Notes under the pieces: generated by a model
What the model saw: the letters and a program-made list of their open reading frames with translations, nothing else
The model's database searches: none
Told to the model about the DNA's origin: nothing
Shown: piece by piece, positions 3,056-19,595 of the stretch
Layout: the number at the start of each line of letters is the position of its first letter
Position numbering within the stretch: position 1 is the stretch's first letter
Position numbers and translations under genes: made by a program
Source: a virus
Reading direction: 5' to 3' (one strand)
Length of the DNA stretch: 22,397 bases
IMG/VR virus record: IMGVR_UViG_3300012936_000199
Coordinates: 1-22,397 of that record

Positions 3056-3078
3056 GCCCCCGAAAGGGGGCTTTTTTT
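3056..3078 (+). terminator. Rho-independent terminator before the baseplate genes
   Basis: Perfect GCCCCC-GAAA-GGGGGC stem with a GNRA tetraloop followed by seven Ts. It insulates the accessory block from the baseplate genes that start at 3115. Confidence 0.92.
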
Positions 3079-3085
3079 GTATGTA

Positions 3086-3103
3086 CATAAATAAAAATAA
3101 ATA
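3086..3103 (+). promoter_or_regulatory. T4-type late promoter region for gp25
   Basis: Two overlapping late-promoter-like octamers, CATAAATA (3086-3093) and AATAAATA (3096-3103), follow the terminator. T4 late promoters use TATAAATA as their only core element. The second copy is part of ATAAATATCGAT, found again before gp8. With T4 spacing, transcripts from the second copy would have a leader of only about six bases, so the first copy may be the working one. Confidence 0.6.
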
Positions 3104-3519: not shown

Positions 3520-5435
3520 TGGCTTTTACTAAGTTTACCAATCTAGACTTTGACCAAATCAAACAATCTATCAAAGATTACCTCCGTGCTAACTCAAACT
3601 TCACGGATTTTGACTTTGATGGGTCAAACTTTAGCGTGCTTATCGATACTCTTGCTTATAACGCATATATCAACTCAGTAAACGCCAATATGATCGTAAA
3701 TGAGTCATTTTTGGACTCAGCTACGCTCCGTAGAAACGTAGTTTCCCTTGCAGGCAACATTGGATACACCCCAAGATCCAAAAAAGCGGCAATTGCTAAG
3801 GTAAAAATGACCGTTAGGGTCACTGCAGAGGTCCCAACAGTCACTTTGAAGGCTGGATTGGTCGCTGTGGGCAATGTTGAGAACACAGATTACACATTTT
3901 CCATCCCAGAAGACATTACAACGACCGTAATTGACGGAATTGCCCAATTTGGAACCGATGAAGAGCCAATTTCTCTCTTCCAAGGCACATATTTGACGAA
4001 TTCTTTCCAATTTGACGGATCTTTGGACCAAAGATTCATCATTAACAACTCAAGTATGGACTACAGCACCCTAGTTGTGCGAATTAAGGAGGAAAATGAG
4101 ACAACTCCTGGAAATAAGTGGTCCAGAGTGCAAAATATTATCGATGTAGACGCCGATTCTGAGATTTATTTTGTAAATGAGGTCCAACAAGAGAAATATG
4201 AGCTTATTTTTGGCGATGGTGTCTTCGGTAAGCCACTAAGAAACGGTCAAATCATCTCTGCAAGCTATATTCTCACCAATGGAGAGGATGGTAACGGTCC
4301 TTCACGGTTCGTTTTCCAAGGAAGCCTAGCAAATCCCAACGGTGGAGTTGTTATCCCTGCATCTACTGTCTCTCTAACCACCCTAGAAGCCGCTAGAAAC
4401 GGCTCTAACATCGAAGGCATAGATTCTATTAAGTATTACGCTCCGAAGCTCTACAGCGCCCAGTACAGGGCTGTGACGGGCAATGACTACGAAGCCATCA
4501 TTAAGGAGATCTATCCTAAGGCAGAAACTATCTCTGTTGTTGGTGGTGAAGAGCTAGATCCACCAAAATTCGGTAATGTCTTCATCAGCATCAAGCCAGT
4601 TAACGGTATTGAGGTTAGTGAGTTCGACAAAAAGATTATTTTGGACAAATTGAAGCAATATTCCATTGCTGGTATCACCCAGAATATCGTAGACCTCAAA
4701 ATCCTCTTTGTTGAGATCGATTCTTCCGTATATTACGACGACAACTTGGTTTCAAGTCCCCAAAGTCTACAAAGTTCCATTATTAGCTCACTAAACACCT
4801 ATTCTGGTTCTGTTGACCTTAATAAGTTTGGTGGTAGATTCAAATACTCCAAAGTTCAGAAGATTATTGACGATACCGACAAGGCAATCACCTCAAACAT
4901 CACTCGCGTGAGAATGCGTAGGAATTTGAGTGCCGTAACCGACGTATTTGCACAATATGAGCTTTGCTTCGGTAATGCGTTCTCTGTTGACCCACATGGC
5001 GGCAACATTAAGAGTACTGGATTCAATGTATTCGGTGTTGATCAGCTTCTATACCTAACTGACTTCCCCAATAAGGATGAGCAAGGAAATCTAGATGGTA
5101 GTGGTAAGGGTGTTATCAAGACATTCACACCAAACATCGAAACTGGTGGTATTACCATCGTCAATCCTAATGCTGGAGAAGTTGACTATACAAAGGGCGA
5201 AATTCAACTAACCACAGTTCGCTTTACTAACACCCAGAAGGAAGACAACGTAATTGAGATCCAAGCATACCCACTCTCCAATGATATCATCGGTTTGAAG
5301 GATTTGTACGTCTCATTTGCCGTTTCTAATAGTGAGATAAATATGGTTAGGGACACGATCTCCAGTGGTGAACAGATCTCTGGTATCGGTTTCGCAGTAA
5401 CCCCAAGTTACTCTAATACAAAGCTAACAAGGTAA
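3519..5435 (+). CDS. 6: Baseplate wedge subunit gp6
   Basis: The 638 residues compare well with T4 gp6 (660). The N-terminal region has FDFDGSNFSVLIDTLAYNA (31-49) and a following stretch ending SLAGNIGYTPRSKKA, characteristic of the gp6/baseplate-J group. FGDGVFGKPLRNG (231-243) is the shared glycine-rich turn. A region near 310-360 (YSAQYRAVTGNDYEAIIKE) is the usual baseplate-J middle domain. The C-terminal part (STGFNVFGVDQLLYLTDFP) is gp6-specific as I recall it. gp6 dimers form the inner baseplate ring and link wedges. The gene overlaps gene 25 by one base and is 17 bases before the giant gene. A GATAAATA near its 3' end may be an internal late promoter. Confidence 0.95.
   Translation: MAFTKFTNLDFDQIKQSIKDYLRANSNFTDFDFDGSNFSVLIDTLAYNAYINSVNANMIVNESFLDSATLRRNVVSLAGNIGYTPRSKKAAIAKVKMTVRVTAEVPTVTLKAGLVAVGNVENTDYTFSIPEDITTTVIDGIAQFGTDEEPISLFQGTYLTNSFQFDGSLDQRFIINNSSMDYSTLVVRIKEENETTPGNKWSRVQNIIDVDADSEIYFVNEVQQEKYELIFGDGVFGKPLRNGQIISASYILTNGEDGNGPSRFVFQGSLANPNGGVVIPASTVSLTTLEAARNGSNIEGIDSIKYYAPKLYSAQYRAVTGNDYEAIIKEIYPKAETISVVGGEELDPPKFGNVFISIKPVNGIEVSEFDKKIILDKLKQYSIAGITQNIVDLKILFVEIDSSVYYDDNLVSSPQSLQSSIISSLNTYSGSVDLNKFGGRFKYSKVQKIIDDTDKAITSNITRVRMRRNLSAVTDVFAQYELCFGNAFSVDPHGGNIKSTGFNVFGVDQLLYLTDFPNKDEQGNLDGSGKGVIKTFTPNIETGGITIVNPNAGEVDYTKGEIQLTTVRFTNTQKEDNVIEIQAYPLSNDIIGLKDLYVSFAVSNSEINMVRDTISSGEQISGIGFAVTPSYSNTKLTR
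5336..5343 (+). promoter_or_regulatory. Possible internal late promoter near the end of gene 6
   Basis: GATAAATA inside the coding sequence, 117 bases before the giant-gene start, differs from T4 TATAAATA at the first base. Chance occurrence is possible. Confidence 0.3.
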
Positions 5436-5452
5436 CATCCTAGGTATACAGC

Positions 5453-8400
5453 ATGATTGGTACTGGATTTGATGTGAGAGTAAAGATCCAAGATATCGTT
5501 GCTTCTCAACTCCCTGAATTTATTTTATCTGATAGTCCACTAACTGACGACTTTCTCAGACAGTTTTACGTCTCCCAGGAAATCCAGGGTGGCGCAGTTG
5601 ACCTTGCGTCTAATTTAGACCAGTACCTAAACCTAAAGGACCTTACTAGCACAAAGAGTGACGATAACTTTCTAACCGCTGATGTTGATTCCTCACAAGA
5701 CATCATTCGGGTAACATCAACCAAGGGCTTTCCTCAGGAGTGGGGTCTGCTCAAAGTTGGTGATGAGATCATTACCTACACCGGTATTACCACAAACAGC
5801 TTCACAGGAGCCATCAGGGGCTTCTCAGGCATCACTGCATACGCCGCACCTAACGATCCCTCCAACCTAGTATTTGAAGCCACCAGCGCCGCCTCTCACA
5901 CCGCTGGTGACTCCGTTGAAAACCTAAGTTCACTCTTCCTAAAGGAGTTCTACAACAAGCTAAAGTTCACCTTTGCTCCTGGTTTTGAAGACATCGATAC
6001 ATCATCTGATGTAAATGCTGCTAACTGGATCCAGAATGTACGTTCATTCTTCCAGTCTAAGGGTAGTGAAGAATCCATCAAGATTCTATTCAAGGTTCTA
6101 TATGGCGAAGATCCTACCGTCATTGACCTAGAAGAGTATCTAATCAAGCCTTCTTTTGCTGAGTACAACAGAGCTGACTATGCTATTGCTGTACCCATCA
6201 CCGGCAACCCCGTTGATTTGCTAGGTAAGACTGTAAAGCAGTCCAATGCAAACATCCTCGGTTCTATCACACAGATCGAGCCCTTCATCCGTAAGGGTCG
6301 TGTATACTACAAGATCTTCTACTTTGTAAGCAACGAAGAGCTATCAAAAGAGCGTAAGAGCTTTACCGTCCCCGGTAGAACTCAAGTTCAGCGCAAGTGG
6401 GATTCTAGTCAGCAGACTCTTACTGTTGATACCACCATTGGCTTCAGTGATACCCATTCATTCGTAACTGCTGATGGTACACACTTCACCTATACAGACT
6501 ACACCGTAAACCAGTTCCTAGGTGTTACTTGTGCAGATCCCAACTATGTGCTAGAAGTTGGTACTGAGATCAGTGACGAGGTTTATGTTGTTGGTCAGAA
6601 CGATAAGGGTGAAGATGTAGTTCTACTACTAACTGGTGTTGTTAGTGACCTTGAATTTGAAGTAGATCCAATCCTACTTCAAGAAGACGAGGAAATCTTT
6701 GTAGATTCTCTTGGGGAGAATATTCAAAGTGAGCGTGTTACCAGAAACGATCAAACATTCAAAGAGATTGTAGCCAACAGCTTTGTCTACAACACATCTG
6801 TTCGCTTTGATGTTGATGACGTTAGTGGTACTGTATTCACCATTAAGAACTCATACCTTGATAAAGCTTTCATCAACGTTGGTGATACCGTAGACATCCT
6901 AGCAAGCGGCACCAATACAGTCTATGCTTCTAACAAGCCAGTTACTGAAGTATCCTACGAAAATGCTACCATCACCGTAGAAGACATCACTGGTGTACCT
7001 CTAGGTGCGAATGTTGATATTCGTAGAAACCAGAAGTATGCAAACAGCAGCAGTGCAGCTATTGATTATGGTAACAATGCTGTTCTATCAAACACACTAA
7101 ACCTATATGATGCTACTGACTTTGACGGCACCCTATTCGTTGCTACAAACTCACTACCATCATACGACATTGATATTGCTCTAACTGAGAATATCATCAC
7201 AGACATCAGTGCAAGCAACCTAGACAACTTCAACAGCCTAGAAGGAACCTACGAGATCGTTCGTGTACCCCAGGACGTCAACTTCCTAACAGGTGAGAGA
7301 GTTGTTTACTCTGTAAGTGGTGGCGCTGAGCCAATCTGTGATCCAGGTGCATACATCGTTGAGGTTCTAAGCAGCCGCAGCTTCCGTCTATATGCATCAC
7401 CTTCATTCATCGGCACACCTAGCTTCATCCCCCTCACTCTAACCACAGAGCCTGGTGAGCACATCTTCACTCTAGAGAGTCAGAAGGACCGTTCTATCAA
7501 TAGCCAGAAGAAGTACGTTAAGATTCCTCTACCTCAGGAAGGCATCTACTCTTCCCCAGATAGAACCCCTGAGCAGATTGAAGACGAAGCCACTGTTGCT
7601 CTACTAACCAATGGCGTTGAGATTAAGACTCCACGGGGCAGGGACAAGGTATACTACGGTCCACTAACCTCCGTAGACGTAATCTTTGGTGGAGATGATT
7701 ACAGTGTAATTACACCCCCAGAACTAACCATTGCAGATTCTACTCTAGAGAACTTCGGTGCTACCGCATCAGCTACTGCTGCTATGAAGGGTAAGCTAGA
7801 GAAGATTCTAATCGACCCTCAGGACTTCGACATCAACCGCGTATTCAGCATCACCGTAACAGGTGGTAATAGCGATGGTGCTACTGCTGAGCCACAGATC
7901 GAAGAGAGAAACCGTTCAATCACTTTCGACGCACGTGAGTTCGTATTCGGTGGTGGTATTGACCCCATCAACGAGTCAATCACATTCCCCATCGATCACA
8001 ACATCCAGCAGGGCGAGCCCCTTACCTATAACAACAGAGGTAATCCTAGCATCCCAACTGGTCCATTCGATGGATCCAACTCAAACAATGGTACAACTCT
8101 AGCCAACGGTGGAATCTACTACCCCAACATTCTAAACAGCAGAAGTATTGAGATCTACAATACTCTAGAGGATCTAAACGCCGGTATTAACACCGTAGGC
8201 TTTACTTCCGAATCTTCTGCGTTTGGTATTCAGTCATTCGACACAGAGCTAAAGCCTCAGATCGTTTCTGCAACGATCACAAATGATGGTGGCTTCTTCT
8301 ACAATAGAGAGATTGTAATTGGACGGGATGGCGTATCTTTCGCGTTCAGTAAGTTTATCTACAACGATCACGGCTTTGAGACTGGCGAGAAAGTTGTCTA

Positions 8401-11400
8401 CTCTGGTAGCGGCAATCGTGTTGTACCCCTAGTACGTAATCAGGAGTACCTAGTTCTAAAGCTAGATGAGCACACCTTCCGTCTATGTGAGATTGGTCCT
8501 GACGACGATCCAACATTTGACTTGGATAGACATGATTATGTCGTATTTGAGAATACTGGTGGCGCATCTGCAACACACGTCATCTCATACCCAGAGATCG
8601 TAGCTGAAGTTGTTGTATCATCATCCTCAGTACCCAACCCAGTTGTAACTGCAACTCCCTACATCAGAGGTGAGATTGAGCGTGTCTACATCACTGGAAA
8701 TGGTTTCTATGGTTCAGACATCATCAACTTTGAAAAAGCTCCCATCATCAAGGTCAGTGAAGGTGAAGGTGCTAAGCTAGTTCCCATCATCAGCGATGGT
8801 GTACTTGGTTCTGTTCAGATTCTATCCAAGGGCAAGAACATCACAGACTCCCCAACAATCACTCTAGTTGACCCAACTGGAGCTGGTCAGGGTGCAAGTC
8901 TACGTGCCGTCGTTCAAGGCGGTGAAATTGTTGATGTTATTATCATCAATGGTGGTTTCTCCTATGCGCCACAATCTAAAATTGAAGTTATTGATAGTAA
9001 CAGAAGAGCTATCCTAGCTGCACGTGTAAGACCCCTAACAGTCAACAACACACTAAAGGAAGGCTTTGAGTCTCTATCTGGTAACCGCTACACAGTACTA
9101 TCTTACGACCGAATTATTCGTGAAGACGTCTATAGCGACACAGGTGATGAGCACTCCCCTATTATTGGTTGGGCTAAGGACGGTAATCCAATCTATGGTC
9201 CATTTGGTTACAGTGAGTTCGACAACGCCAACTCAGAGATCCGTGCAATGGTATCTTCCTACAAGGAGAGCGGAAGCTACATCCAAGGAAGACCCGATGA
9301 ATTGAAGTACCCCATCGGTTTCTTCATTGAGGATCATAGGTTTGAAGGTGACGGTGACCTAGACCAGTACAATGGTAGATATTGTAAGACCCCTGAGTTC
9401 CCTAACGGAATCTATGCTTACTTTGCAACAGTAGACCCCTCCGATAACTCCACCACAAGACCCCCAGTATTCCCATACTTCATTGGTGAGTTCTTCAGGG
9501 ATTCTCCTAGCACCGAGCAGGATGAACTACCCCAGTCATACAGCATCCTCAATAAGCCCATCTACAGGAACACCTTCCCCTATGCGGTAGGCAACCCCTT
9601 CATTGGAAGTGAGTTTATTGACCAGTCATACCTAACAGACATCCAGACCACAGTTATCACTGACTTGAACAGTGGTAGCGTATCTGACGTCTCCATTGTT
9701 GGTGCCGGTAGAAGCTATGCTGTTGGTGACGTTGCAGTCTTCGATACTGAGGAAGACGGTCTATCCGTACGGGTATCCAAGATTGAGGGTGTTAATGTAG
9801 AAAGAGTATCACTAGACGTACTTTCTTACAGTAGAGAGTTCACTAAGATCATCCGTAAGGATGAGGATACCGTTCGCGTATACATCGACGGCGACCATGA
9901 GTACCTAGATCAGGACCTAGTTGTTATCAGTGGCTTGAGTACTGCTCTAGAGCCCCTAGGTGGTGCAACTAAGATCAATGTAAGTCGTGGACAAATGTCC
10001 TTGTACTCACCATTCAGGGATTCACCATTCGACGGTGTATTCGATATCTTCGTTAACAGCATCAATGAAAATGTAAGTGTCGGTTCAAGTATCGTTATCT
10101 TGAATGATGAGCCAGGTGGTGGAGATGAGTACCTAGAAGTTCTTAACATCTTCCCAGTAAACAAGGCTCTACGTGTTAGAAGAACAACTGGCTACGGTGT
10201 AACTCACCCCATCGGTGCACCTATCGTTACTGTACCTAACTTCTTCGACATCGATAACTCAACCGTTGAGTTCAGATCCGAGATCGATGAAGAGTATTTC
10301 TTCAACCCCATCCAGTCAGTTGGTTATGGTGTGGAGACTGGTGTAGGCATAACTGCTGTATATCGGATTGGTGAGATCGAGAACGTAATCTCCATCCAGA
10401 CTCAGGCAATCTTTATGCCTAACAACACCTTCAAGAAGAACGAGAAGGTAACTTTCAGTAAGCCTGCATCCAAGGATAACATTGCTGCTGTCGATGCTGA
10501 CGGCAACACATTCATTATCCCACAGATCCAGAGTGAGTTCTTTATCCATAAGACTGCACAGAACTTCGTTGGTCTAAAGACTACTAAGAATTCTGAGCCC
10601 CTCCTATTCTCTAATCCAATCTCCATCAGTGGACAGGATAGCCCAGAGTACTCTATCAAGAGCCAAAGGAAGTATGAGGACTGCAACCTAGACCGCTTCT
10701 CCTCATTGGTCCAGACTAGCCAGGATCACCTACTAAGAACCGGTGATATTGTTGATCTAGAGGTCATCTCAAACAGATCACGTGGCGATCTAAACAACCC
10801 AAGGGTCATCGTTCAGTTCGATGATTCCAGACAGCTATTGATCATCGATCCCCAGGATGCTGATTCAGTTGACTTTGAGAACAACCTAATTGTTCTAGAG
10901 GACCACAACTACAGAAGTGGCGATCTACTATTCTATCAGAACCCAAGCACTGCTATTGGTGGTCTAATCTCAGGCAGAACATACTACGTCATCGTATTTG
11001 ATAACGATAGGTTCTACCTAGCAGACACCCAGTTCGACACCATTACTGGTTCTGAGCTTCCCATCAACATCACATCTGCTGGTATTGGTAACAACAGGTT
11101 CTTCAAGGTCAATCCTGAGATCCGCGTTATCTCAAACAACGAGCTTGTCTTCGATACAAGTGACGCATCACTAGACGGTTACGAACTCACTCTATTCAGT
11201 GATAGTGCTCTAACCGAGGTGATGGAGAACAATAGTAAGGATTCCGACTTCGTTATTAGAAGGAATGATGCCGGAACTCGTCTATTCGTTCGGTACTCTG
11301 TTAACAACCCAGAGACCTTCTACTATGCACTAACCAAAGACGGTATTCTAGTTGAGCCTAACAGAGATGCACCTAAGCATAACAGTGTAACCTACAACAA

Positions 11401-14400
11401 GAGTGGTTATACTTCAGGTGGTGCTATCACAAATCTATCTGAGAGAAGCTTCCGTTTCCCACTATCAGTTAAGCCCAACACCCCAATCTACAGCACAACA
11501 AACGAGAACTGCATTCTAAAGTACACAACCAGATCATCCAACACCCTTGGACCTATTGCCCAGGTTGATATTGTATCAACTGGTCAGAACTTCACCACTC
11601 TACCTGAGTTCATCTCAATGCAGAGTGCTACTGGTACTAACGCAGAACTACGTGCAAACACCGAGACCATCGGTACCATTGCTGCATACAGAATCCAGAA
11701 CCCCGGTTGGGGATACTATGCTGATACCAGCTTGCGTCCAAAGGGTCAGATTCAGCCTAAGGTTGAGTTTACCGATAGTGACTTTATCACCGACATTGAG
11801 ATTCTCGAAGGTGGTAAGGGCTATCAGACCCCTCCAGTACCCGTTATAATCGATTCTGTTACCAGAGAGGAAGTTGATGCTGGTTCATTGACTATCCAGC
11901 TCCAGTCCTCTGTTATCGTTGACGTAGAGATCAATCTATCTCCTACTGGTCTATCCAAGAACAGTCACGATCTATTCGTTACTGATGGAGACAACGGAAT
12001 CCCCATTCTATCAATCATCGATATTGATAACGTCAGTGGACGTGTTATCTACGAGATGCAGACTCCTATCTCTGGATACAACAGCTACCCATTTGCTGTT
12101 GGTGATGAGGTATTTGTTGAGAACGTTGCTGGTGTTGATGGACAGACAACATACCTAAACTCCAGAGAGATTGGTTATCTATTCGGTAAGGTTGTAGTTG
12201 CACTACCAACCAACCCAGTAGTAATTACCGTTGAGTACCCAGAAGAGTACTGGGATAAGATCGGTAATGCAATCCGGGATCAGGATTCATTCTCTACCAT
12301 CGTTAACAAGAAGAACTACCCACAGTTTAATGTATCACAGGCAACTGCTATCCTCGTTACTGGTGAGAGACTATCTTACATCAACGAGCAGGGCGTTGTT
12401 CAGGATACTGACTTGATTGTTGAAGAGAGCAACGAGGCATTCTTCAAAGTTAAGGGCAACTTCGACATCCGTGTAGGTGACGTTCTACAGGGTAATGTTA
12501 GTGGTATTATCGTTACTGTAACTGGTTTCAATCGCCAGGCATGTACATTCACAACCAAGTCAATCTCTAGATTCGCTAATGGTTGGAACGATACAATCGG
12601 CTTCACCAACGAAGAATCACAGGCACTACCTGATAACGACTACTACCAGAACCTATCTTACTCCATTAAGAGTACTGTTGAGTTCGATGATCTAATCGGT
12701 CCAGTTAACAAGCTAGTTCACCCATCCGGTCTAAAGAACTTCGCCGACACCAAGATTGAGTCAACTGGCTCAGTTAGCGTAAGTGGTGTTACTACAGACA
12801 CAGTAACGATTGACCTAATTGGTCTAACTGACGTTGCTGATACACCTTTGCGCGTTGATAGAATCAACTGTTGGGACTTGGGTTATGACGACGAGGTAGT
12901 AAACAACAGGTCAACTGCTGTTCGCTTCAACGCACTAACCGACAACAAGCGTCTAACTGATTACTTCGCACTACAGACTAACCGCGTTCTACTAATGGAC
13001 GACATCAGTGGTGAATTCATTGATGCAGACAACAGTGCTGAAGTAGTTCGTTATGTTGACTTCGACATCGCCGATGCCCCTATGGTTCGCGTTGTTGGTC
13101 AGATCCGTAATCCACTAGATGACGGTATTCAGTTGGTTGAGAGCGTAATCCTTTATGAGGGTGCAAACACCACCACTCTACAGAAGGCAGTCGTGTCCTC
13201 TCTAAACGACCTAGGATACGGTGAGATCGCTGGTCAAGACAGAAGCACCCTAGGACGCCCAACGGTACGTTACACCCCCTACGAGGACTTCCTAGACACC
13301 ACTGACGTCGATCTAAAGATCCTAAGTGCTCAGTATGTAACTGATCAGAACCCACAACAGCAGGACATCGGTTATGTAAGGTTGGCTTCTGAATCTGGAA
13401 CAGTTGCTCCTGGTCAAACTGCAACCATCCACACCACCAGAAACAGTGCTCCTGCTATTGCAGCATACATCCAGACCAGAAAGGATACTGCACGGATTGA
13501 AGATCTACGCTACACCGAGGTTTATGCCTTCAACGGTGGTGGTGGAGACTCATACTACGCTGAGTACACATTCGACACTCAAGCAACAACCGGATACAGC
13601 AACAGCAACAGTGACCTAGTATTCACGTCTGAGGATCTAAGCAACAACCGCGTTAGATTGAAGATCACCAACAACGGCACTACTTCTACTAAGTATGACG
13701 TTAAGATTACTGAGTTTACTAACCAGCCAGTAGGTTCTACCGTATATCGCTTCAAGCGTGGTAGTATCCCAACCGGTACTGAGAAGAGTATCAACCTAAT
13801 CTCAACCTATGAGAACACAATCTCATCTGTTCCTGATATCACTCTACTAACTCTAGCTGCAAATGAGTTCCAGACCGCAAGGTGCATGGTAAACGTTCGC
13901 GGCACACGGTTGAATGCAATCTATCAGGTAATGATCGCCAACTCTGCTGGTAGTGCATACGCTACTGCATATCCCTTCATCGAAGAGGGTAATGATGGCG
14001 TTGGTATTGGTACCTTCGGTGCTATCCAGAGCGGTAACGACTTTGAGCTACACTTCTATCCTGAGTCAGGCATCCCTGTAGAGAGCATCCAGCTAGTAAC
14101 TTATGCTGAGGCATTCATTCGCGAGAATGACTACCGCAACTACGTTGATGAGCCACTAAACTACGGTGTTGTTACTGAGAACTACTATATCAAGCCATAC
14201 AATGCGCCATTCGGTAACCGCCGTGACCGTATTAGGTTTGAGTTGACCAGTGACGGTGTACCCATCTACGAGAAGAGATTCTTCCCACCAACAACTGTAA
14301 ATGATACCACATTCAGTATCCCCAATCACTTCTTCAGCAGCAATGAAGAGTTGTACTACCTACCCGGCGATTCCGTCGATGGTCCTAGTGCACCTCTAGA

Positions 14401-17113
14401 GATTGAGCCCACAGTTGACGTTGATGGTAACACAATCAACACAATGCCTACCCGCGTATGGGCTATCAAGCGTAGTCTAAACAGCTTCGCTCTAAAGGCA
14501 TCTCCTACTGGTAATGCAATCCGCGTTATCGGTAATGGTCAGGGCAACGAGCACCGTATCGGCATGACTAAGAAGAACGAAAAGACTATCATTACAGTTG
14601 ATGGTATCGTTCAGTCACCAATTGCTAATACAAACCTAGTCTACACCGTTGATGAGGCTCTAGATGCAACAGAAACCTTTGTTACACTAGCTGGTATTGG
14701 TACAATTCGTGCTGGTGATCTACTACGGATCGACGAAGAGATCCTCAACATTGTTGACGTAGGATTCTCTACAAGCTCTGTTGGACCAATCTCTAATACT
14801 GGTTCTATCCCTCTAGTTGAGGTTCAGCGTGGTTCAGTCGGTACATTGGCTGCAACACACAGCAACCAGTCCGAGGCTAAGCTACTCAAGGGAAGCTACA
14901 ACATCGTTGAGTCGGATATCGTCTTCACCCAGGCACCATCTGGTAAGGGCAACCTAAACATCAACGAATCCAACATGGTTGACCTAAACTCAACCTTCCA
15001 GGGACGTACTTTCCTCCAGAAAGAGTATGACCAGATCAAGATCTACGATGATATCAGCAACCAGTTTGATGGTATCAGCAATAAGTATGAGATCACTTTC
15101 AACGGTCAGCAGGTTGATGAAATCGAGAACGGAAGCGGCATTCTACTAATTAATGACGTTTACCAGACTCCAACCACAGAAAACAACGAGGGCAACAACT
15201 ACTTCTATGAGTATAACGATACTGTCGGTATCAACAGCGTTGTCTTCACTGGTATCACATCATCCAATGGTCAGAGAGTTGAGTCCCAGTTTGACGTCAA
15301 CCAGAACCAGATCCCCAGAGGTGGTCTAATCGTCTCCGTCGGTTCTAGTCCCGGTCTTGGCTATGCGCCTCTAGTTGGTGCTCTAGTCGATCCAACTGTA
15401 TCTAACGGCACGATCACCGCTATCAACTCACAAGAGAGAAGTGGTTCTACAACTGCAGTTCAGTATGCACGTTACAATAACATCAGTGGTGAGATGCTAG
15501 TCTCCCTCAAGGGAACGCAGGCTTCTGCTCCTGTATCCATCACGAATGCTACGTACACGAACATCTCTGGTCTACTTGTTATCGAGACAACCACATCACT
15601 ATCAAGCATCGGTTTGAATGCTGGTGATATCATTGAGTTGGCTGGATTAGTATTCCAGTGCGATCAAGGTTCCAAGGCATACCCAGATGAGGATCCACTA
15701 TTCGTAGTCGATACAGTCCTCGACGATAGGAAGTTCACTGTATTCGTCGGCGCATCTGAGTTTGAGCATACCTGGACAAGTGGTGGTACATTCCAGAAGT
15801 TTGAGCCCTTCTCATTCGACAAGGAGCTTCTAAATCCCAAGTTTGTATTCCTAGATGGTCTAACATTCTCCTGCCCATCAGGTACACCCAACAACTCAAC
15901 CACTATCTTCCCTGATACAACCAACCACCTCCCCGTCACCAGACGTGTTGACGCAGCTCACCTACTAATCTATGTTGGTGCTTCTGAGTTCCCACACTTC
16001 TATGAGTCTGGTGGTACCATCGGAGCGTTCACTAAGCTACGTCCCGGAAGAGGCTATAGGGAGACCGTGAAGGTGCTTGCAGTTGAAGAAGGTCACACAG
16101 GTGCCGAAGCCGTAATCGAAGGCATTCCAGGCGCAGGTGGCGTCCTCTCATTCAGCATTATCAGTGGTGGATCAGGCTATACCAACCCAAGCCTATTCGT
16201 TCCCGATCCTGATTACGCAAACCTACCTGTTGAGTGTGTCTTCAGACGCGATGGTACAACAGAAACCGGTAAGAATCTATTCGTTACTCTAACTGTTGGC
16301 GCAGCTAAGACAACTGCAATCGGTCGTTCTGAGTTCTTTGAGGTTGACTCCTTTGAGATCACTAACCAAGGTTATGGTTTCCAAGAGGGTGATATCCTAC
16401 AGATTCCTGATCTAGTTGTTGATGAGAGATTGAGTGCTCCTATCGAGCCATTCCAGCTCACAGTCACCAAGACATTCAACGACAACTTCACCGCATATAA
16501 CTTCGGTGAGCTTGATTACATCGACTCTATCAAGAAACTACAGAATGGTTTAAGAACCAGATTCCCACTAGAGTACAACGGTGAGCTACTATCCTTCGAG
16601 ATTGACCCCAATAACGAGGATTCTGCAGCTATCGAACCAGCAAACGTTCTATTGATCTTTGTTAACACCGTTCTACAGGTCCCCAATGAGAGTTACTTCT
16701 TCAAAGGTGGAACAACATTCCAGTTCCTAATTCCACCTCGCCCAGAAGATGACGTTGACGTTTACTTCTATCGCGGCAAGAGAGGCATTGACTCAGTTCA
16801 GGTTGATATCCCTGGCGAGAAGATCAAGCCTGGTGATGAGATTCAAGTTCGCAAGAACGATTCTTATGACCCAAGTAAGACTCAGGACATCAGAACTGTT
16901 ACTGAAATTATCGAATCAGATACAGTAAGGACCTCCATCTACGTTGGTAACAATGACTTGGATACCAATAACCCAAGACCAGTTGCATGGGACAAGCAGA
17001 AGCGTGACCTATTCATCTACGGTGAGCCTGTTACTAAGGTTCGCGACAGTCTTGAGAGTATCATCAAGCCAACTGCTGCGATTGTTAAGAGCTTCAACGT
17101 TAACGACAATTAG
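5453..17113 (+). CDS. Giant baseplate/tail structural protein in the gp7 position, 3886 aa, with YHYH-like domain
   Basis: It lies between genes 6 and 8, where T4 has gene 7 (1032 residues), so it is probably the gp7 counterpart and nearly four times as long. The N terminus (1-65; SQLPEFILSDSP, FYVSQEIQGGAVDL) and about 190-235 (SFFQSKGSEESIKILFKVLYGED) resemble the start of large cyanophage gp7-like proteins, as I recall them. A YHYH-like domain has H1234 and WAKDGNPIYGPFGY at 1240-1253. Beta-rich 'G-x-G-Y' modules lie near 735-800, 1075-1194, 1409-1447, 2033-2135 and 3530-3585. Two RG-type modules are at 72-150 and 3067-3137, and a tandem pair with VGASEF-x-H and SGGT at 3398-3449 and 3469-3525. 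No signal peptide or membrane helix is seen. The frame continues past the TAG stop for 288 codons. Leucine is mostly CTA. Confidence 0.85.
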   Translation: MIGTGFDVRVKIQDIVASQLPEFILSDSPLTDDFLRQFYVSQEIQGGAVDLASNLDQYLNLKDLTSTKSDDNFLTADVDSSQDIIRVTSTKGFPQEWGLLKVGDEIITYTGITTNSFTGAIRGFSGITAYAAPNDPSNLVFEATSAASHTAGDSVENLSSLFLKEFYNKLKFTFAPGFEDIDTSSDVNAANWIQNVRSFFQSKGSEESIKILFKVLYGEDPTVIDLEEYLIKPSFAEYNRADYAIAVPITGNPVDLLGKTVKQSNANILGSITQIEPFIRKGRVYYKIFYFVSNEELSKERKSFTVPGRTQVQRKWDSSQQTLTVDTTIGFSDTHSFVTADGTHFTYTDYTVNQFLGVTCADPNYVLEVGTEISDEVYVVGQNDKGEDVVLLLTGVVSDLEFEVDPILLQEDEEIFVDSLGENIQSERVTRNDQTFKEIVANSFVYNTSVRFDVDDVSGTVFTIKNSYLDKAFINVGDTVDILASGTNTVYASNKPVTEVSYENATITVEDITGVPLGANVDIRRNQKYANSSSAAIDYGNNAVLSNTLNLYDATDFDGTLFVATNSLPSYDIDIALTENIITDISASNLDNFNSLEGTYEIVRVPQDVNFLTGERVVYSVSGGAEPICDPGAYIVEVLSSRSFRLYASPSFIGTPSFIPLTLTTEPGEHIFTLESQKDRSINSQKKYVKIPLPQEGIYSSPDRTPEQIEDEATVALLTNGVEIKTPRGRDKVYYGPLTSVDVIFGGDDYSVITPPELTIADSTLENFGATASATAAMKGKLEKILIDPQDFDINRVFSITVTGGNSDGATAEPQIEERNRSITFDAREFVFGGGIDPINESITFPIDHNIQQGEPLTYNNRGNPSIPTGPFDGSNSNNGTTLANGGIYYPNILNSRSIEIYNTLEDLNAGINTVGFTSESSAFGIQSFDTELKPQIVSATITNDGGFFYNREIVIGRDGVSFAFSKFIYNDHGFETGEKVVYSGSGNRVVPLVRNQEYLVLKLDEHTFRLCEIGPDDDPTFDLDRHDYVVFENTGGASATHVISYPEIVAEVVVSSSSVPNPVVTATPYIRGEIERVYITGNGFYGSDIINFEKAPIIKVSEGEGAKLVPIISDGVLGSVQILSKGKNITDSPTITLVDPTGAGQGASLRAVVQGGEIVDVIIINGGFSYAPQSKIEVIDSNRRAILAARVRPLTVNNTLKEGFESLSGNRYTVLSYDRIIREDVYSDTGDEHSPIIGWAKDGNPIYGPFGYSEFDNANSEIRAMVSSYKESGSYIQGRPDELKYPIGFFIEDHRFEGDGDLDQYNGRYCKTPEFPNGIYAYFATVDPSDNSTTRPPVFPYFIGEFFRDSPSTEQDELPQSYSILNKPIYRNTFPYAVGNPFIGSEFIDQSYLTDIQTTVITDLNSGSVSDVSIVGAGRSYAVGDVAVFDTEEDGLSVRVSKIEGVNVERVSLDVLSYSREFTKIIRKDEDTVRVYIDGDHEYLDQDLVVISGLSTALEPLGGATKINVSRGQMSLYSPFRDSPFDGVFDIFVNSINENVSVGSSIVILNDEPGGGDEYLEVLNIFPVNKALRVRRTTGYGVTHPIGAPIVTVPNFFDIDNSTVEFRSEIDEEYFFNPIQSVGYGVETGVGITAVYRIGEIENVISIQTQAIFMPNNTFKKNEKVTFSKPASKDNIAAVDADGNTFIIPQIQSEFFIHKTAQNFVGLKTTKNSEPLLFSNPISISGQDSPEYSIKSQRKYEDCNLDRFSSLVQTSQDHLLRTGDIVDLEVISNRSRGDLNNPRVIVQFDDSRQLLIIDPQDADSVDFENNLIVLEDHNYRSGDLLFYQNPSTAIGGLISGRTYYVIVFDNDRFYLADTQFDTITGSELPINITSAGIGNNRFFKVNPEIRVISNNELVFDTSDASLDGYELTLFSDSALTEVMENNSKDSDFVIRRNDAGTRLFVRYSVNNPETFYYALTKDGILVEPNRDAPKHNSVTYNKSGYTSGGAITNLSERSFRFPLSVKPNTPIYSTTNENCILKYTTRSSNTLGPIAQVDIVSTGQNFTTLPEFISMQSATGTNAELRANTETIGTIAAYRIQNPGWGYYADTSLRPKGQIQPKVEFTDSDFITDIEILEGGKGYQTPPVPVIIDSVTREEVDAGSLTIQLQSSVIVDVEINLSPTGLSKNSHDLFVTDGDNGIPILSIIDIDNVSGRVIYEMQTPISGYNSYPFAVGDEVFVENVAGVDGQTTYLNSREIGYLFGKVVVALPTNPVVITVEYPEEYWDKIGNAIRDQDSFSTIVNKKNYPQFNVSQATAILVTGERLSYINEQGVVQDTDLIVEESNEAFFKVKGNFDIRVGDVLQGNVSGIIVTVTGFNRQACTFTTKSISRFANGWNDTIGFTNEESQALPDNDYYQNLSYSIKSTVEFDDLIGPVNKLVHPSGLKNFADTKIESTGSVSVSGVTTDTVTIDLIGLTDVADTPLRVDRINCWDLGYDDEVVNNRSTAVRFNALTDNKRLTDYFALQTNRVLLMDDISGEFIDADNSAEVVRYVDFDIADAPMVRVVGQIRNPLDDGIQLVESVILYEGANTTTLQKAVVSSLNDLGYGEIAGQDRSTLGRPTVRYTPYEDFLDTTDVDLKILSAQYVTDQNPQQQDIGYVRLASESGTVAPGQTATIHTTRNSAPAIAAYIQTRKDTARIEDLRYTEVYAFNGGGGDSYYAEYTFDTQATTGYSNSNSDLVFTSEDLSNNRVRLKITNNGTTSTKYDVKITEFTNQPVGSTVYRFKRGSIPTGTEKSINLISTYENTISSVPDITLLTLAANEFQTARCMVNVRGTRLNAIYQVMIANSAGSAYATAYPFIEEGNDGVGIGTFGAIQSGNDFELHFYPESGIPVESIQLVTYAEAFIRENDYRNYVDEPLNYGVVTENYYIKPYNAPFGNRRDRIRFELTSDGVPIYEKRFFPPTTVNDTTFSIPNHFFSSNEELYYLPGDSVDGPSAPLEIEPTVDVDGNTINTMPTRVWAIKRSLNSFALKASPTGNAIRVIGNGQGNEHRIGMTKKNEKTIITVDGIVQSPIANTNLVYTVDEALDATETFVTLAGIGTIRAGDLLRIDEEILNIVDVGFSTSSVGPISNTGSIPLVEVQRGSVGTLAATHSNQSEAKLLKGSYNIVESDIVFTQAPSGKGNLNINESNMVDLNSTFQGRTFLQKEYDQIKIYDDISNQFDGISNKYEITFNGQQVDEIENGSGILLINDVYQTPTTENNEGNNYFYEYNDTVGINSVVFTGITSSNGQRVESQFDVNQNQIPRGGLIVSVGSSPGLGYAPLVGALVDPTVSNGTITAINSQERSGSTTAVQYARYNNISGEMLVSLKGTQASAPVSITNATYTNISGLLVIETTTSLSSIGLNAGDIIELAGLVFQCDQGSKAYPDEDPLFVVDTVLDDRKFTVFVGASEFEHTWTSGGTFQKFEPFSFDKELLNPKFVFLDGLTFSCPSGTPNNSTTIFPDTTNHLPVTRRVDAAHLLIYVGASEFPHFYESGGTIGAFTKLRPGRGYRETVKVLAVEEGHTGAEAVIEGIPGAGGVLSFSIISGGSGYTNPSLFVPDPDYANLPVECVFRRDGTTETGKNLFVTLTVGAAKTTAIGRSEFFEVDSFEITNQGYGFQEGDILQIPDLVVDERLSAPIEPFQLTVTKTFNDNFTAYNFGELDYIDSIKKLQNGLRTRFPLEYNGELLSFEIDPNNEDSAAIEPANVLLIFVNTVLQVPNESYFFKGGTTFQFLIPPRPEDDVDVYFYRGKRGIDSVQVDIPGEKIKPGDEIQVRKNDSYDPSKTQDIRTVTEIIESDTVRTSIYVGNNDLDTNNPRPVAWDKQKRDLFIYGEPVTKVRDSLESIIKPTAAIVKSFNVNDN
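14651..14862 (+). other. Second copy of the RG-type structural module
   Basis: Residues 3067-3137 of the giant protein. D-A-T-E-T-F-V-T-L, then a G-D-L-L-R-I-D-E-E-I strand pair, then Q-R-G-S-V-G-T-L-A-A-T-H. The same order occurs near the N terminus (residues 72-150: K-V-G-D-E-I-I-T-Y-T, then I-R-G-F-S-G, then A-S-H-T). Confidence 0.5.
15644..16021 (+). repeat. Tandem protein-level repeat (VGASEF/SGGT) in the giant gene
   Basis: Unit 1 spans residues 3398-3449 and unit 2 spans 3469-3525. Both start G-L-[VT]-F-x-C-x-x-G, end in V-G-A-S-E-F-x-H and then S-G-G-T. Unit 2 has an extra loop (N-N-S-T-T-I-F-P-D-T-T). The pattern suggests a duplicated beta domain. Confidence 0.6.
17111..17113 (+). 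other. In-frame TAG interrupting the giant gene
   Basis: Codon 3887 is TAG. The same frame stays open for 288 more codons to TAA at 17978-17980. The codons between the TAG and the first possible start (ATT CTA CTA TCA AAC GTA GAC) have the CTA leucine bias of the gene itself, so they look like former or still translated coding sequence. Confidence 0.75.
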
Positions 17114-17134
17114 ATTCTACTATCAAACGTAGAC

Positions 17135-17980
17135 TTGTTTGAATACGAGGAGACACTAGGAACCGTCATTCCTTCCATCAAGGCTAGGGCATACAACCCA
17201 ACCGCAGGCGAGCCTGTAGAGCTACGGGTTGTAATGAACGGAGATCGCGTACAAGGCGTTGCTGTTCTAAACGCAGCAACCAACAGCGGTTACAGCAACG
17301 GTGATACCATCCGGTTCAACACATCACCAACAGGAGCCAGGGCACAAGCTAACCTACTCGTATCTGGTGGAAGAGTAACAGCCGTGGTAATGACTAATCA
17401 GGGCAGTGGTTATACCTCACCTCCTGGATTCGTCGTCTCAGATCCATCCCAAACATACGAGGATGTTAATGAGATTGGTAACATTGAGGGATGGTCCTCC
17501 ATCATCACTTCAATCACACCATCCTCCTCTGGTCCATTCAACCGGTCACTAATCATCGGCTATAAGACCGTTGATCCGCTGGTTCTATCAGGTGATCTAA
17601 AGCCAGGATACAGAATCTCCGTAACGAATACGTTTGTTGGCTCAGGCGTACAGGCATACGGATCTAACTCCTCAGACTTGATTTCCGTTGGTACTAATTA
17701 CCTAAACGCGGTATATCAAGTGGTTTCCAACTCACCAACTGCAAACGGCGGTACATTGACTGTTAACGTATCAGGAACTACTGATCTAAGTGGTGTAGCG
17801 TCATCCGGCGATAACCTAGGCGGATTCAGTTGGGGTAGATTGACTAACCTAACACGCGAGTTCCCACGGCAGTTTACAGTTGATCCAACAGCTTATACTG
17901 ACGACTTTGCGAACTACCCAACGTTGATCAGAACATCTGAGGGTCTACGTAACCGTGGAGGTCTAGGCAAAGAGGGCTAA
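17135..17980 (+). CDS. C-terminal continuation of the giant structural protein (split by TAG)
   Basis: An open frame of 281 codons from TTG 17135, in the same phase as the giant gene and directly after its TAG. The first in-frame ATG is 17234, which would drop 33 residues; neither start has a Shine-Dalgarno, so independent initiation is weakly supported. The product repeats the 'G-x-G-Y' module of the giant protein twice (NSGYSNGD at 50-57; GSGYTSPPGF at 90-99, after a G-A-R-A-Q-A-N strand). Its end (SWGRLTNLTREFPRQF, then a polar tail) looks like the C terminus of such large cyanophage structural proteins, as I recall them. Read through, the full product would be about 4175 residues. Best explanation: one gene broken by a nonsense change, a sequencing error or programmed read-through. 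A separate small gene is less likely. Confidence 0.65.
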   Translation: MFEYEETLGTVIPSIKARAYNPTAGEPVELRVVMNGDRVQGVAVLNAATNSGYSNGDTIRFNTSPTGARAQANLLVSGGRVTAVVMTNQGSGYTSPPGFVVSDPSQTYEDVNEIGNIEGWSSIITSITPSSSGPFNRSLIIGYKTVDPLVLSGDLKPGYRISVTNTFVGSGVQAYGSNSSDLISVGTNYLNAVYQVVSNSPTANGGTLTVNVSGTTDLSGVASSGDNLGGFSWGRLTNLTREFPRQFTVDPTAYTDDFANYPTLIRTSEGLRNRGGLGKEG

Positions 17981-17985
17981 AAAGT

Positions 17986-18041
17986 AGGGGGGCGATGAGC
18001 GTATAAATATCGATATAAAGGTATTTGCATCATTGCCCCCT
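17986..18041 (+). promoter_or_regulatory. Imperfect inverted repeat enclosing the gp8 late promoter
   Basis: AGGGGGGCGATGAGC (17986-18000) pairs with GCATCATTGCCCCCT (18027-18041), leaving two single-base bulges (G17992, A18029) and one G-T pair. The 26-base loop contains TATAAATA. The stem ends six bases before the gp8 ATG. A transcript started in the loop lacks the left arm and cannot fold this way; a read-through transcript can. No T-run follows, so it is not a standard terminator. Confidence 0.72.
18002..18009 (+). promoter_or_regulatory. 8: Late promoter TATAAATA for gp8
   Basis: A perfect T4 late promoter core in the gap before gene 8. With T4 spacing, transcription would begin near 18015 and give a leader of about 33 bases. 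The extended motif ATAAATATCGAT (18003-18014) is identical to 3097-3108 upstream of gp25. Confidence 0.82.
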
Positions 18042-18047
18042 TATACT

Positions 18048-19595
18048 ATGGCTGCTCTAATCACTGATGGCTTTCGTCTACTCAATGCAGACAATTTCAT
18101 TGAATCAGTAAGCGATCCAGATAATTCATACTATATTTTCGTCGGTCTTACCAACCCAGTTGGTAATGGCTACGGACGTACACCGGACTGGAATCAAGAT
18201 CCCCCAAGTCCAGAAGACAGTATTTCATACACCAGACACGTGTACGACACCATGCTTTACGGGAGACGTATTACTCCCGGTAACGTAAAGCGTGTTATTC
18301 GTCGTATCGACTGGAAGCGAGGAACTCGCTATGAGCAGTATCGTGATGACTATAGTGTAAATAATGTTTCTCCAAATACCGGTTCTACTCGTCTATATGA
18401 TGCAAACTACTACGTAGTAAATAGCGAGTTCCGTGTATATGTCTGCATTAGCAACGGTTCTAGTGGAGACAACCCCAAGGGCAATGGTTCTGAAGATGAG
18501 CCAAACTTTGTTGATACCGAACCATCCGTAGCAGGTAGCAGCGGCGACGGATATGTTTGGAAGTATCTATTCACAATTTCCCCTGCCGACGTTATCAAGT
18601 TTGATAGCACCGAGTATATTACCGTACCTAACGACTGGTTGACTACAACCACCCCACAGATCGTTGCTATTCGTGAGAGTGGCGATTCAGATCTAAATGA
18701 TAGCCAATTGAAGCACATCTACATCGATCAGAGTGGCGAAGGTTATTCAGGTACTGCAAACCAGGAAGTATCCATCATCGGTGACGGTGAAGGTGCTGAG
18801 GCTATTATTGACGTCAGTTCTGGTCGTATTACCCGCGCTCTAGTTTCTAAGGGCGGTAAGGGCTACACATGGGGTCTAGTTGACCTAGGTAACCTAAACC
18901 AGAACGCAACCAGAGCTGCTAAGTTGGATGTTATTATCCCTCCTTCAAAGGGTCATGGATATGATATCTACGAAGAGCTTGGTACCGATAAGGTTATTGT
19001 TTATGCTCGTTTTGACGACTCTACTCAAGACTTCCCAATCGACACCAAGTTTGCTCAGATTGGTCTAATCAAGAACCCAACTATCAAGAACACAACCAGC
19101 ATCTTCAGTGAGAATACTTTCACTGCTGCAGCTTCTATTAAGTTCACCTCCTTCACCGGTACTGTCCGGGTAGGTGACGTAATCGAGCAGGTTACTTCTA
19201 CAGGCATTGTCGCCAAAGGTTATGTTGCTTCATTCGATGAAAGCACACTAGTCTTGAAGTACACCCAAGATAGATCCCTATATTATAACCCACTAGTCTA
19301 CACAAACCAAGACTATATCGGTATTACAACTTCTGGTCATAAGGTTTCCTTTGAATCTTCAGCCAGTGCTATCACAACCGGCGATGGTTTTACTGGTGCG
19401 ATTGATACTTCCTTCTCTGGAAACACAATCACAGTGGGCAATAGGAACGTTGATTTGGGTAGCCAGTTCATAAATGGGCTCGCTGAATCAGAGATAAATA
19501 AACCTAGCGGAGAGATTTTATATCTCGACAACAGACCTGAGGTAACTAGGAATCCTCGTCAAAAGGAAGACGTTAAAATCATTTTGGAATTCTAA
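18048..19595 (+). CDS. 8: Baseplate wedge subunit gp8 (enlarged)
   Basis: The 515-residue product shares T4 gp8 landmarks: a short N-terminal helix and strand with Y-x-I-F-V-G (28-33), P-x-D-S (55-58), VIRRIDW (83-89; VIPRRDW in T4), YVVNSEFRVYVC (122-133), GDGYVWKYLF (167-176) and the C-terminal SGEILYLDNRP then QKEDVKIILEF (487-515). T4 gp8 has 334 residues. The extra length falls in two stretches, about 214-305, holding 'G-x-G-Y' repeats like those of the giant protein, and about 355-485. gp8 dimers connect the wedge core to the gp10/gp7 region in T4. I chose ATG 18048 over an in-frame TTG at 18033, which lies inside the upstream stem. It has its own late promoter. Confidence 0.93.
   Translation: MAALITDGFRLLNADNFIESVSDPDNSYYIFVGLTNPVGNGYGRTPDWNQDPPSPEDSISYTRHVYDTMLYGRRITPGNVKRVIRRIDWKRGTRYEQYRDDYSVNNVSPNTGSTRLYDANYYVVNSEFRVYVCISNGSSGDNPKGNGSEDEPNFVDTEPSVAGSSGDGYVWKYLFTISPADVIKFDSTEYITVPNDWLTTTTPQIVAIRESGDSDLNDSQLKHIYIDQSGEGYSGTANQEVSIIGDGEGAEAIIDVSSGRITRALVSKGGKGYTWGLVDLGNLNQNATRAAKLDVIIPPSKGHGYDIYEELGTDKVIVYARFDDSTQDFPIDTKFAQIGLIKNPTIKNTTSIFSENTFTAAASIKFTSFTGTVRVGDVIEQVTSTGIVAKGYVASFDESTLVLKYTQDRSLYYNPLVYTNQDYIGITTSGHKVSFESSASAITTGDGFTGAIDTSFSGNTITVGNRNVDLGSQFINGLAESEINKPSGEILYLDNRPEVTRNPRQKEDVKIILEF
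19493..19500 (+). promoter_or_regulatory. Possible internal late promoter near the end of gene 8
   Basis: GATAAATA inside gp8, 106 bases before the next start. It mirrors the GATAAATA 117 bases before the giant gene, in the 3' end of gene 6. Confidence 0.3.

Follow-up and report, generated by a model that had tools for sequence, protein, structure and literature searches.

The leader of the baseplate wedge gene gp8 in a cyanophage sequence of 22,397 nucleotides (the whole stretch that was analysed, here called the window) probably forms a start-masking hairpin with a late promoter embedded in it, working like the leaders of the T4 genes e and I-TevI. T4-type start masking at gp8 is well supported by the sequence, through the structure that is predicted, its excess over shuffled sequences, its recurrence across a clade of relatives with different stems, and the fit of each leader's own arms to one another. 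An RNA that reads through from the upstream gene gp7 would contain both arms and fold, burying the 20 nt before the gp8 AUG together with the UG of that codon; an RNA begun at the late promoter motif TATAAATA would start within the structure, without the left arm, and leave the gp8 start open. Most gp8 would then come from its own late RNA, and its amount could thereby be adjusted independently of the giant gp7 message. That such a read-through RNA exists, and that its fold affects translation, we infer.

The window has the gene row of a T4-like cyanophage, namely gp25, gp6, a giant gp7 and gp8, and all features located below lie on the plus strand. The gp7-like giant baseplate gene (phrog_2885) occupies 5453-17980, upstream of gp8, and ends in the stop codon TAA at 17978-17980, 21 nt 5' of the promoter motif. 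The gp8 gene (18048-19595, with its ATG at 18048-18050) encodes 515 aa and matches phrog_438, baseplate wedge subunit, with an E value of 2e-170. The named phages nearest to it are the Synechococcus phages S-CAM7 (75% identity) and ACG-2014f (74%). The intergenic gap is 67 nt long and contains TATAAATA. The gp7 frame of the window is split by an in-frame TAG at 17111-17113, after which it is open again to 17980. The part after the TAG matches the end of the gp7 family (phrog_2885 positions 3920-4178), and at this position the frame is uninterrupted in eight of the nine relatives checked. The TAG may be a sequencing error, a recent mutation or a recoded stop.

A first-pass annotation of this DNA described arms of about 14 paired bases enclosing TATAAATA. 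These arms are real, and stronger than was claimed. As an ungapped inverted repeat, 17985-17998 and 18030-18043 are 86% complementary over 14 nt. In the minimum-energy RNA fold, the main stem joins a left arm at 17984-18001 to a right arm at 18026-18044 through 18 pairs, four of them G-U, with one bulged base at 18029. The stem stands directly 3' of the gp7 stop in the window, and its right arm adjoins the gp8 start, ending three bases before 18048 and not six, as had been stated. Within the main stem, an inner helix pairs 18006-18011 with 18020-18025 and takes in half of the promoter motif. An outer helix pairs 17971-17979, which comprises the final gp7 codons and the beginning of the gp7 stop codon, with 18049-18058, inside the gp8 start. 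It occupies the U and G of the gp8 AUG, whose unpaired probabilities are 0.11 (18049) and 0.01 (18050). The predicted read-through fold thus pairs 18026-18044 and 18049-18058, which is to say over the gp8 start region. No Rfam family matched the window at or above its gathering score.

The predicted T4-type late promoter motif at 18002-18009 is the sole exact copy of TATAAATA in the window. Given that 1.07 copies are expected there by chance, the motif alone proves nothing, and it is its conservation that carries the case. The motif follows the left arm, and its 3' half (18006-18009) pairs with 18022-18025 in the inner helix. The earlier placement of the promoter in a loop is therefore right in that the motif lies between the arms of the main stem, but wrong for 18006-18009, which is paired. 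We infer promoter activity from the motif, and a late transcription start at about 18015 from the spacing of T4 late promoters, which we take to apply here. The predicted RNA from this point lacks the left arm.

The fold departs clearly from chance. None of 200 shuffles folded as well as the 121-nt region (z -3.63), and the local fold of the gp8 leader stood at z -4.93 against shuffles. The interaction between the left and right parts of the window leader is -25.8 kcal/mol. Among 202 gene starts of S-CAM7 and ACG-2014f that lack TATAAATA, cut with the same geometry, the strongest interaction was -12.4 kcal/mol, and none of the 202 equalled the gp8 leader of the window, S-CAM7 or ACG-2014f. Comparing the duplex energy of the left part with its own shuffles was discarded as a poor test, in which arms that are partly promoter score unremarkably; values at or below 0.05 were obtained for 10 of the 32 long leaders, counting near-copies, and for 3 of 50 short ones.

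The predicted opening of the start was followed as accessibility, the mean unpaired probability of the start region from -20 to +6. In the window it rises from 0.20 in the read-through RNA to 0.50 in the late RNA (z of the rise 3.17 against shuffles), and the fraction of shuffles as closed as the read-through RNA is 0.005. Moving the late start two bases up or four down leaves the late value at 0.46-0.54. For the 24 long leaders that are distinct (S-PM2, taken in by gap length, and 23 from the clade described below), the rise has a mean z of +2.17 and reaches p <= 0.05 in 15; among 34 other gp8 leaders the mean z is -0.04, with 4 at this level. Compared with shuffles, the read-through RNAs of the long leaders are more closed (z -1.39) and their late RNAs more open (+0.79). 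In these predicted folds, a closed read-through RNA combined with an open late RNA is the two-way mark of a switch. The difference between the two RNAs is weak in L013, L021, L022, L023 and L024 (p 0.14-0.60).

In genes without a Shine-Dalgarno sequence, initiation should depend on an open leader. The 20 nt preceding the gp8 ATG contain no Shine-Dalgarno-like word in the window or in eight relatives checked. Because gp8 lacks this signal, closing its leader should block initiation. The word TTATAC before the ATG was considered as a general ribosome signal and rejected, since, of 184 starts in S-CAM7 and 190 in ACG-2014f, it precedes only 3 and 2, respectively, with gp8 among them in both.

The loci L002 to L024 cluster with the window and with the records of S-CAM7 and ACG-2014f in a gp8 tree, as a single group of 25 of the 71 rows with support 100/100; the gp8 identities of L002 to L024 are 67-76%. 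Further gp8 scans with L015, L024 and L016 as queries returned no additional clade contigs, only outgroup leaders, which were added as controls. All 23 distinct clade leaders have an exact TATAAATA 35-49 nt before the gp8 start, while the median gap in other gp8 leaders is 18 nt. When the part of the leader missing from the predicted late RNA was paired with the part retained in it, the interaction was -8 kcal/mol or stronger in 15 of the 23 clade leaders and in none of 118 other gp8 leaders. Before this comparison near-copies were merged. Two loci lacking the gene start were excluded, as were 14 clade contigs that had been fetched again, and 32 leaders without an NATAAATA motif and 5 too close to a contig end were dropped. 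The predicted device may fairly be ascribed to most members of the clade, but not to all of them.

The stem sequences differ among lineages. The left arm of L006-L008 and L011 is the promoter itself. L015 resembles the window, with the promoter for the most part between the arms, and L009, L010 and S-CAM7 have it paired in an inner helix. Retention of the promoter with loss of the pairing had been named beforehand as the outcome that would refute masking. It is what is seen for the exact geometry of the window, since most relatives lack this stem, but within the clade other stems take its place; the 118 other gp8 leaders have none. The gp7 stop TAA lies inside TATAAATA in 12 of the 23 distinct leaders (L002, L003, L005, L009, L013, L016-L018 and L021-L024), so that one short word is both gene end and promoter, and in several of them also a hairpin arm. 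This overlap is replaced by an insert of 21-26 nt in the window, L015, L010 and S-CAM7; in the first two of these the insert bears the left arm. The gp7 frame of the metagenome contig L003 is shifted at a point about 294 codons from its end, and many stops lie upstream of it; a sequencing or assembly error is the probable cause.

Selection on the pairing was examined by exchanging arms between leaders. Own arms average -10.7 kcal/mol and swapped arms -6.5. With 16 leaders, none of 20,000 permutations was as good as the own arms; with 11 leaders, one per stem type, 3 of 20,000 were, and with nine leaders (without the window and L015) 150 of 20,000. These sets were hand-picked from the 23 distinct leaders. 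In 20 short leaders there was no effect, 8,300 of 20,000 permutations doing as well as the own arms. In L013, L016, L017, L023 and L024 the own right arm comes only 9th to 14th of 16. The predicted structure is kept across relatives in so far as own arms beat swapped ones, but neither set given to RNAalifold shows column-by-column covariation. On a MAFFT alignment of the 23 leaders it finds no consensus pairs, because lineage-specific stems do not align; on six leaders it finds 10 pairs, none with a double change.

The hairpin could also be a functionless chance palindrome, a transcription terminator or an opposed promoter pair, a set of alternatives that is jointly very unlikely. Chance is disfavoured by the shuffle z values, the arm swap, the motif-less gene starts and the 15 of 23 against 0 of 118. 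An intrinsic terminator would be expected to have a G+C-rich stem with a T run after it, but the bases from 18045 on are ACTATGGCT, and a terminator scan (covering loops of 3-8 only) lists nothing at the stem. The reverse complement of TATAAAT does occur within the right arm of L013 and L018, which speaks for these alternatives, but in the window no minus-strand promoter motif is present at the stem. The terminator and the opposed late promoter were both rejected on these grounds.

The stem might instead act on the RNA itself, protecting the gp7 message at its 3' end or being cut by a host RNase, so that gp7 and gp8 RNAs are separated with scant direct effect on initiation. Its position directly 3' of the gp7 stop in the window suits this role, and RNase III could plausibly act on a long stem. 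This explanation seems improbable, since in the strong members the right arm stays beside the gp8 start, the gp7 stop is inside the promoter motif in the 12 leaders listed above, and late leaders are also more open than shuffles (mean z +0.79), which a stability stem does not need.

The main rival is translational coupling, in which the stem closes gp8 on the long RNA until the left arm is melted by a ribosome that is completing gp7. Long-RNA gp8 would then be made in step with gp7, and the late promoter would add more. The arrangement of the genes speaks for it: 21 nt separate the gp7 stop from the promoter in the window, the stop lies inside TATAAATA in those 12 leaders, and the outer helix links the gp7 end to the gp8 AUG. 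A terminating ribosome was taken to cover 11 nt past the stop. When the RNA it covers is removed, predicted accessibility becomes 0.51 in the window and averages 0.53 over the 23 leaders, compared with 0.55 for late RNA and 0.30 for read-through RNA. In L010, L082 and L083, however, a ribosome at the stop gives only 0.40-0.41 against about 0.61 for late RNA, and coupling alone needs no promoter inside the stem. As the whole explanation it is rather unlikely, but masking and coupling may hold together. The claim that the gp8 start is masked in read-through RNA thus stands as far as the predicted accessibility and the fit of own arms go, with the reservation that a ribosome terminating on gp7 is predicted to open the start equally.

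What start masking would achieve at gp8 depends on when the long RNA is made. A strong intrinsic terminator at 3056-3080, with a six-pair G+C stem, a GAAA loop and a T run, lies 5' of gp25. It is followed immediately by CATAAATA and AATAAATA, just 5' of gp25, so that terminator and motifs together span 3056-3103; NATAAATA motifs are found after the terminator within this interval. The interval is likely to be the border and start of a late baseplate unit. Because the terminator and then the NATAAATA motifs precede gp25, the long RNA that covers gp7 is probably a late one too. The early-versus-late logic of T4, on which the first-pass annotation relied, need not apply, since gp25, gp6 and gp7 are structural and probably late themselves. 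Given this upstream unit, the use of the hairpin is probably dosage rather than timing. A separate dosage of gp8 makes sense because T4 tails contain 12 copies of gp8 and 6 of gp7.

The same scan was applied, with T4 as positive control, to five genomes, where 84 of 103 TATAAATA sites were followed by an ORF; starts were chosen by ORF length, and some may be wrong. In T4, 3 of 27 sites reached p <= 0.05, and these, the only sites for which genes were named, precede e (ranked first), segE and I-TevII. Of these, e and I-TevII are documented cases of start masking with a late promoter in the available text of the published accounts (PMC3014915, PMC2988022). At segE (T4 NC_000866, 112021; L147) the late promoter motif lies within a predicted start-masking structure; the T4 start-masking accounts, in their available text, name segB and not segE. 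Of the 23 sites in S-CAM7 the gp8 site ranks second (p 0.06), and of the 18 in ACG-2014f it ranks third (p 0.03). One of seven sites reaches p <= 0.05 in S-SM2 and none of nine in S-PM2.

The best two of the 23 sites in S-CAM7 precede gp8 and a 4,168-aa ORF, and the three of 18 sites at p <= 0.05 in ACG-2014f precede gp8, a 3,967-aa ORF and a 2,518-aa ORF. The giant-gene cases are leads only, because about one match per genome is expected by chance. In both phages (L143, S-CAM7 12060-12128; L144, ACG-2014f 6275-6337) a late promoter motif lies in a predicted hairpin that precedes a giant ORF of about 4,000 aa, homologous between the two and beside a putative endonuclease gene; in ACG-2014f another promoter-bearing predicted hairpin precedes the 2,518-aa ORF (record position 200254). 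A swap matrix of the giant-gene leaders (five rows, four distinct) has own arms best except in row L148, and is too small to count. It is tempting to speculate, although we consider it doubtful, that in the clade a trick which T4 uses for timing has become a means of setting the dosage of virion parts, with promoter hairpins before gp8 and some giant structural genes. Such starts would stay closed in long late mRNAs except when a ribosome comes in from the preceding gene, and be fully open on short late RNAs, so that output would have two inputs, upstream translation and the gene's own promoter. At gp8 the device would work without a Shine-Dalgarno sequence.

If the masking reading is correct, start masking extends from the lysis, recombination and homing genes of T4 to a baseplate gene of ocean cyanophages. 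There would then be a cheap sequence test for promoter-embedded hairpins in any T4-like genome, and how phages produce virion parts in unequal amounts from a single giant message could be tested at one site.

No published gp8 leader hairpin in cyanophages was found, in a literature search that scarcely reached subscription journals, nor any cyanophage case or Shine-Dalgarno-less leader of the T4 e type in the literature searched. The nearest cyanophage system, the 5' leader of psbA in S-PM2, shares with gp8 a predicted hairpin and a late site of the gp55 type (PMC5931967). It concerns another gene and a proposed role in light response or RNA stability, and the text available mentions no masking of the start in read-through RNA. 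That a baseplate gene can carry structure at its start is, as such, already known from T4 gene 25, which is described in the available text as having a conserved stem at its start and is counted among genes with a sequestered ribosome site (PMC3014915, PMC2988022). Gene 25 of the T-even phages thus shares with gp8 an RNA structure at a baseplate wedge gene start, but it is another gene in other hosts, and in the account available no late promoter is placed inside the stem.

The closest parallels are the T4 leaders of e, soc, 49 and I-TevI/II/III, in which RNA from upstream forms a start-masking helix according to the available text (PMC3014915, PMC2988022). The precedent cited in the first-pass annotation, that hairpins block translation of read-through RNA, is thus documented. 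These T4 helices are described there as masking the Shine-Dalgarno sequence and/or the AUG against early or middle RNA, whereas the gp8 leader has no Shine-Dalgarno sequence, sits in a probably late unit and has arms that vary by lineage. The late RNA of the T4 e type is translated, as that of gp8 would be. In the e leader as described, as in that of gp8, TATAAATA is located in the 5' part of the structure, and the late RNA is made without that strand.
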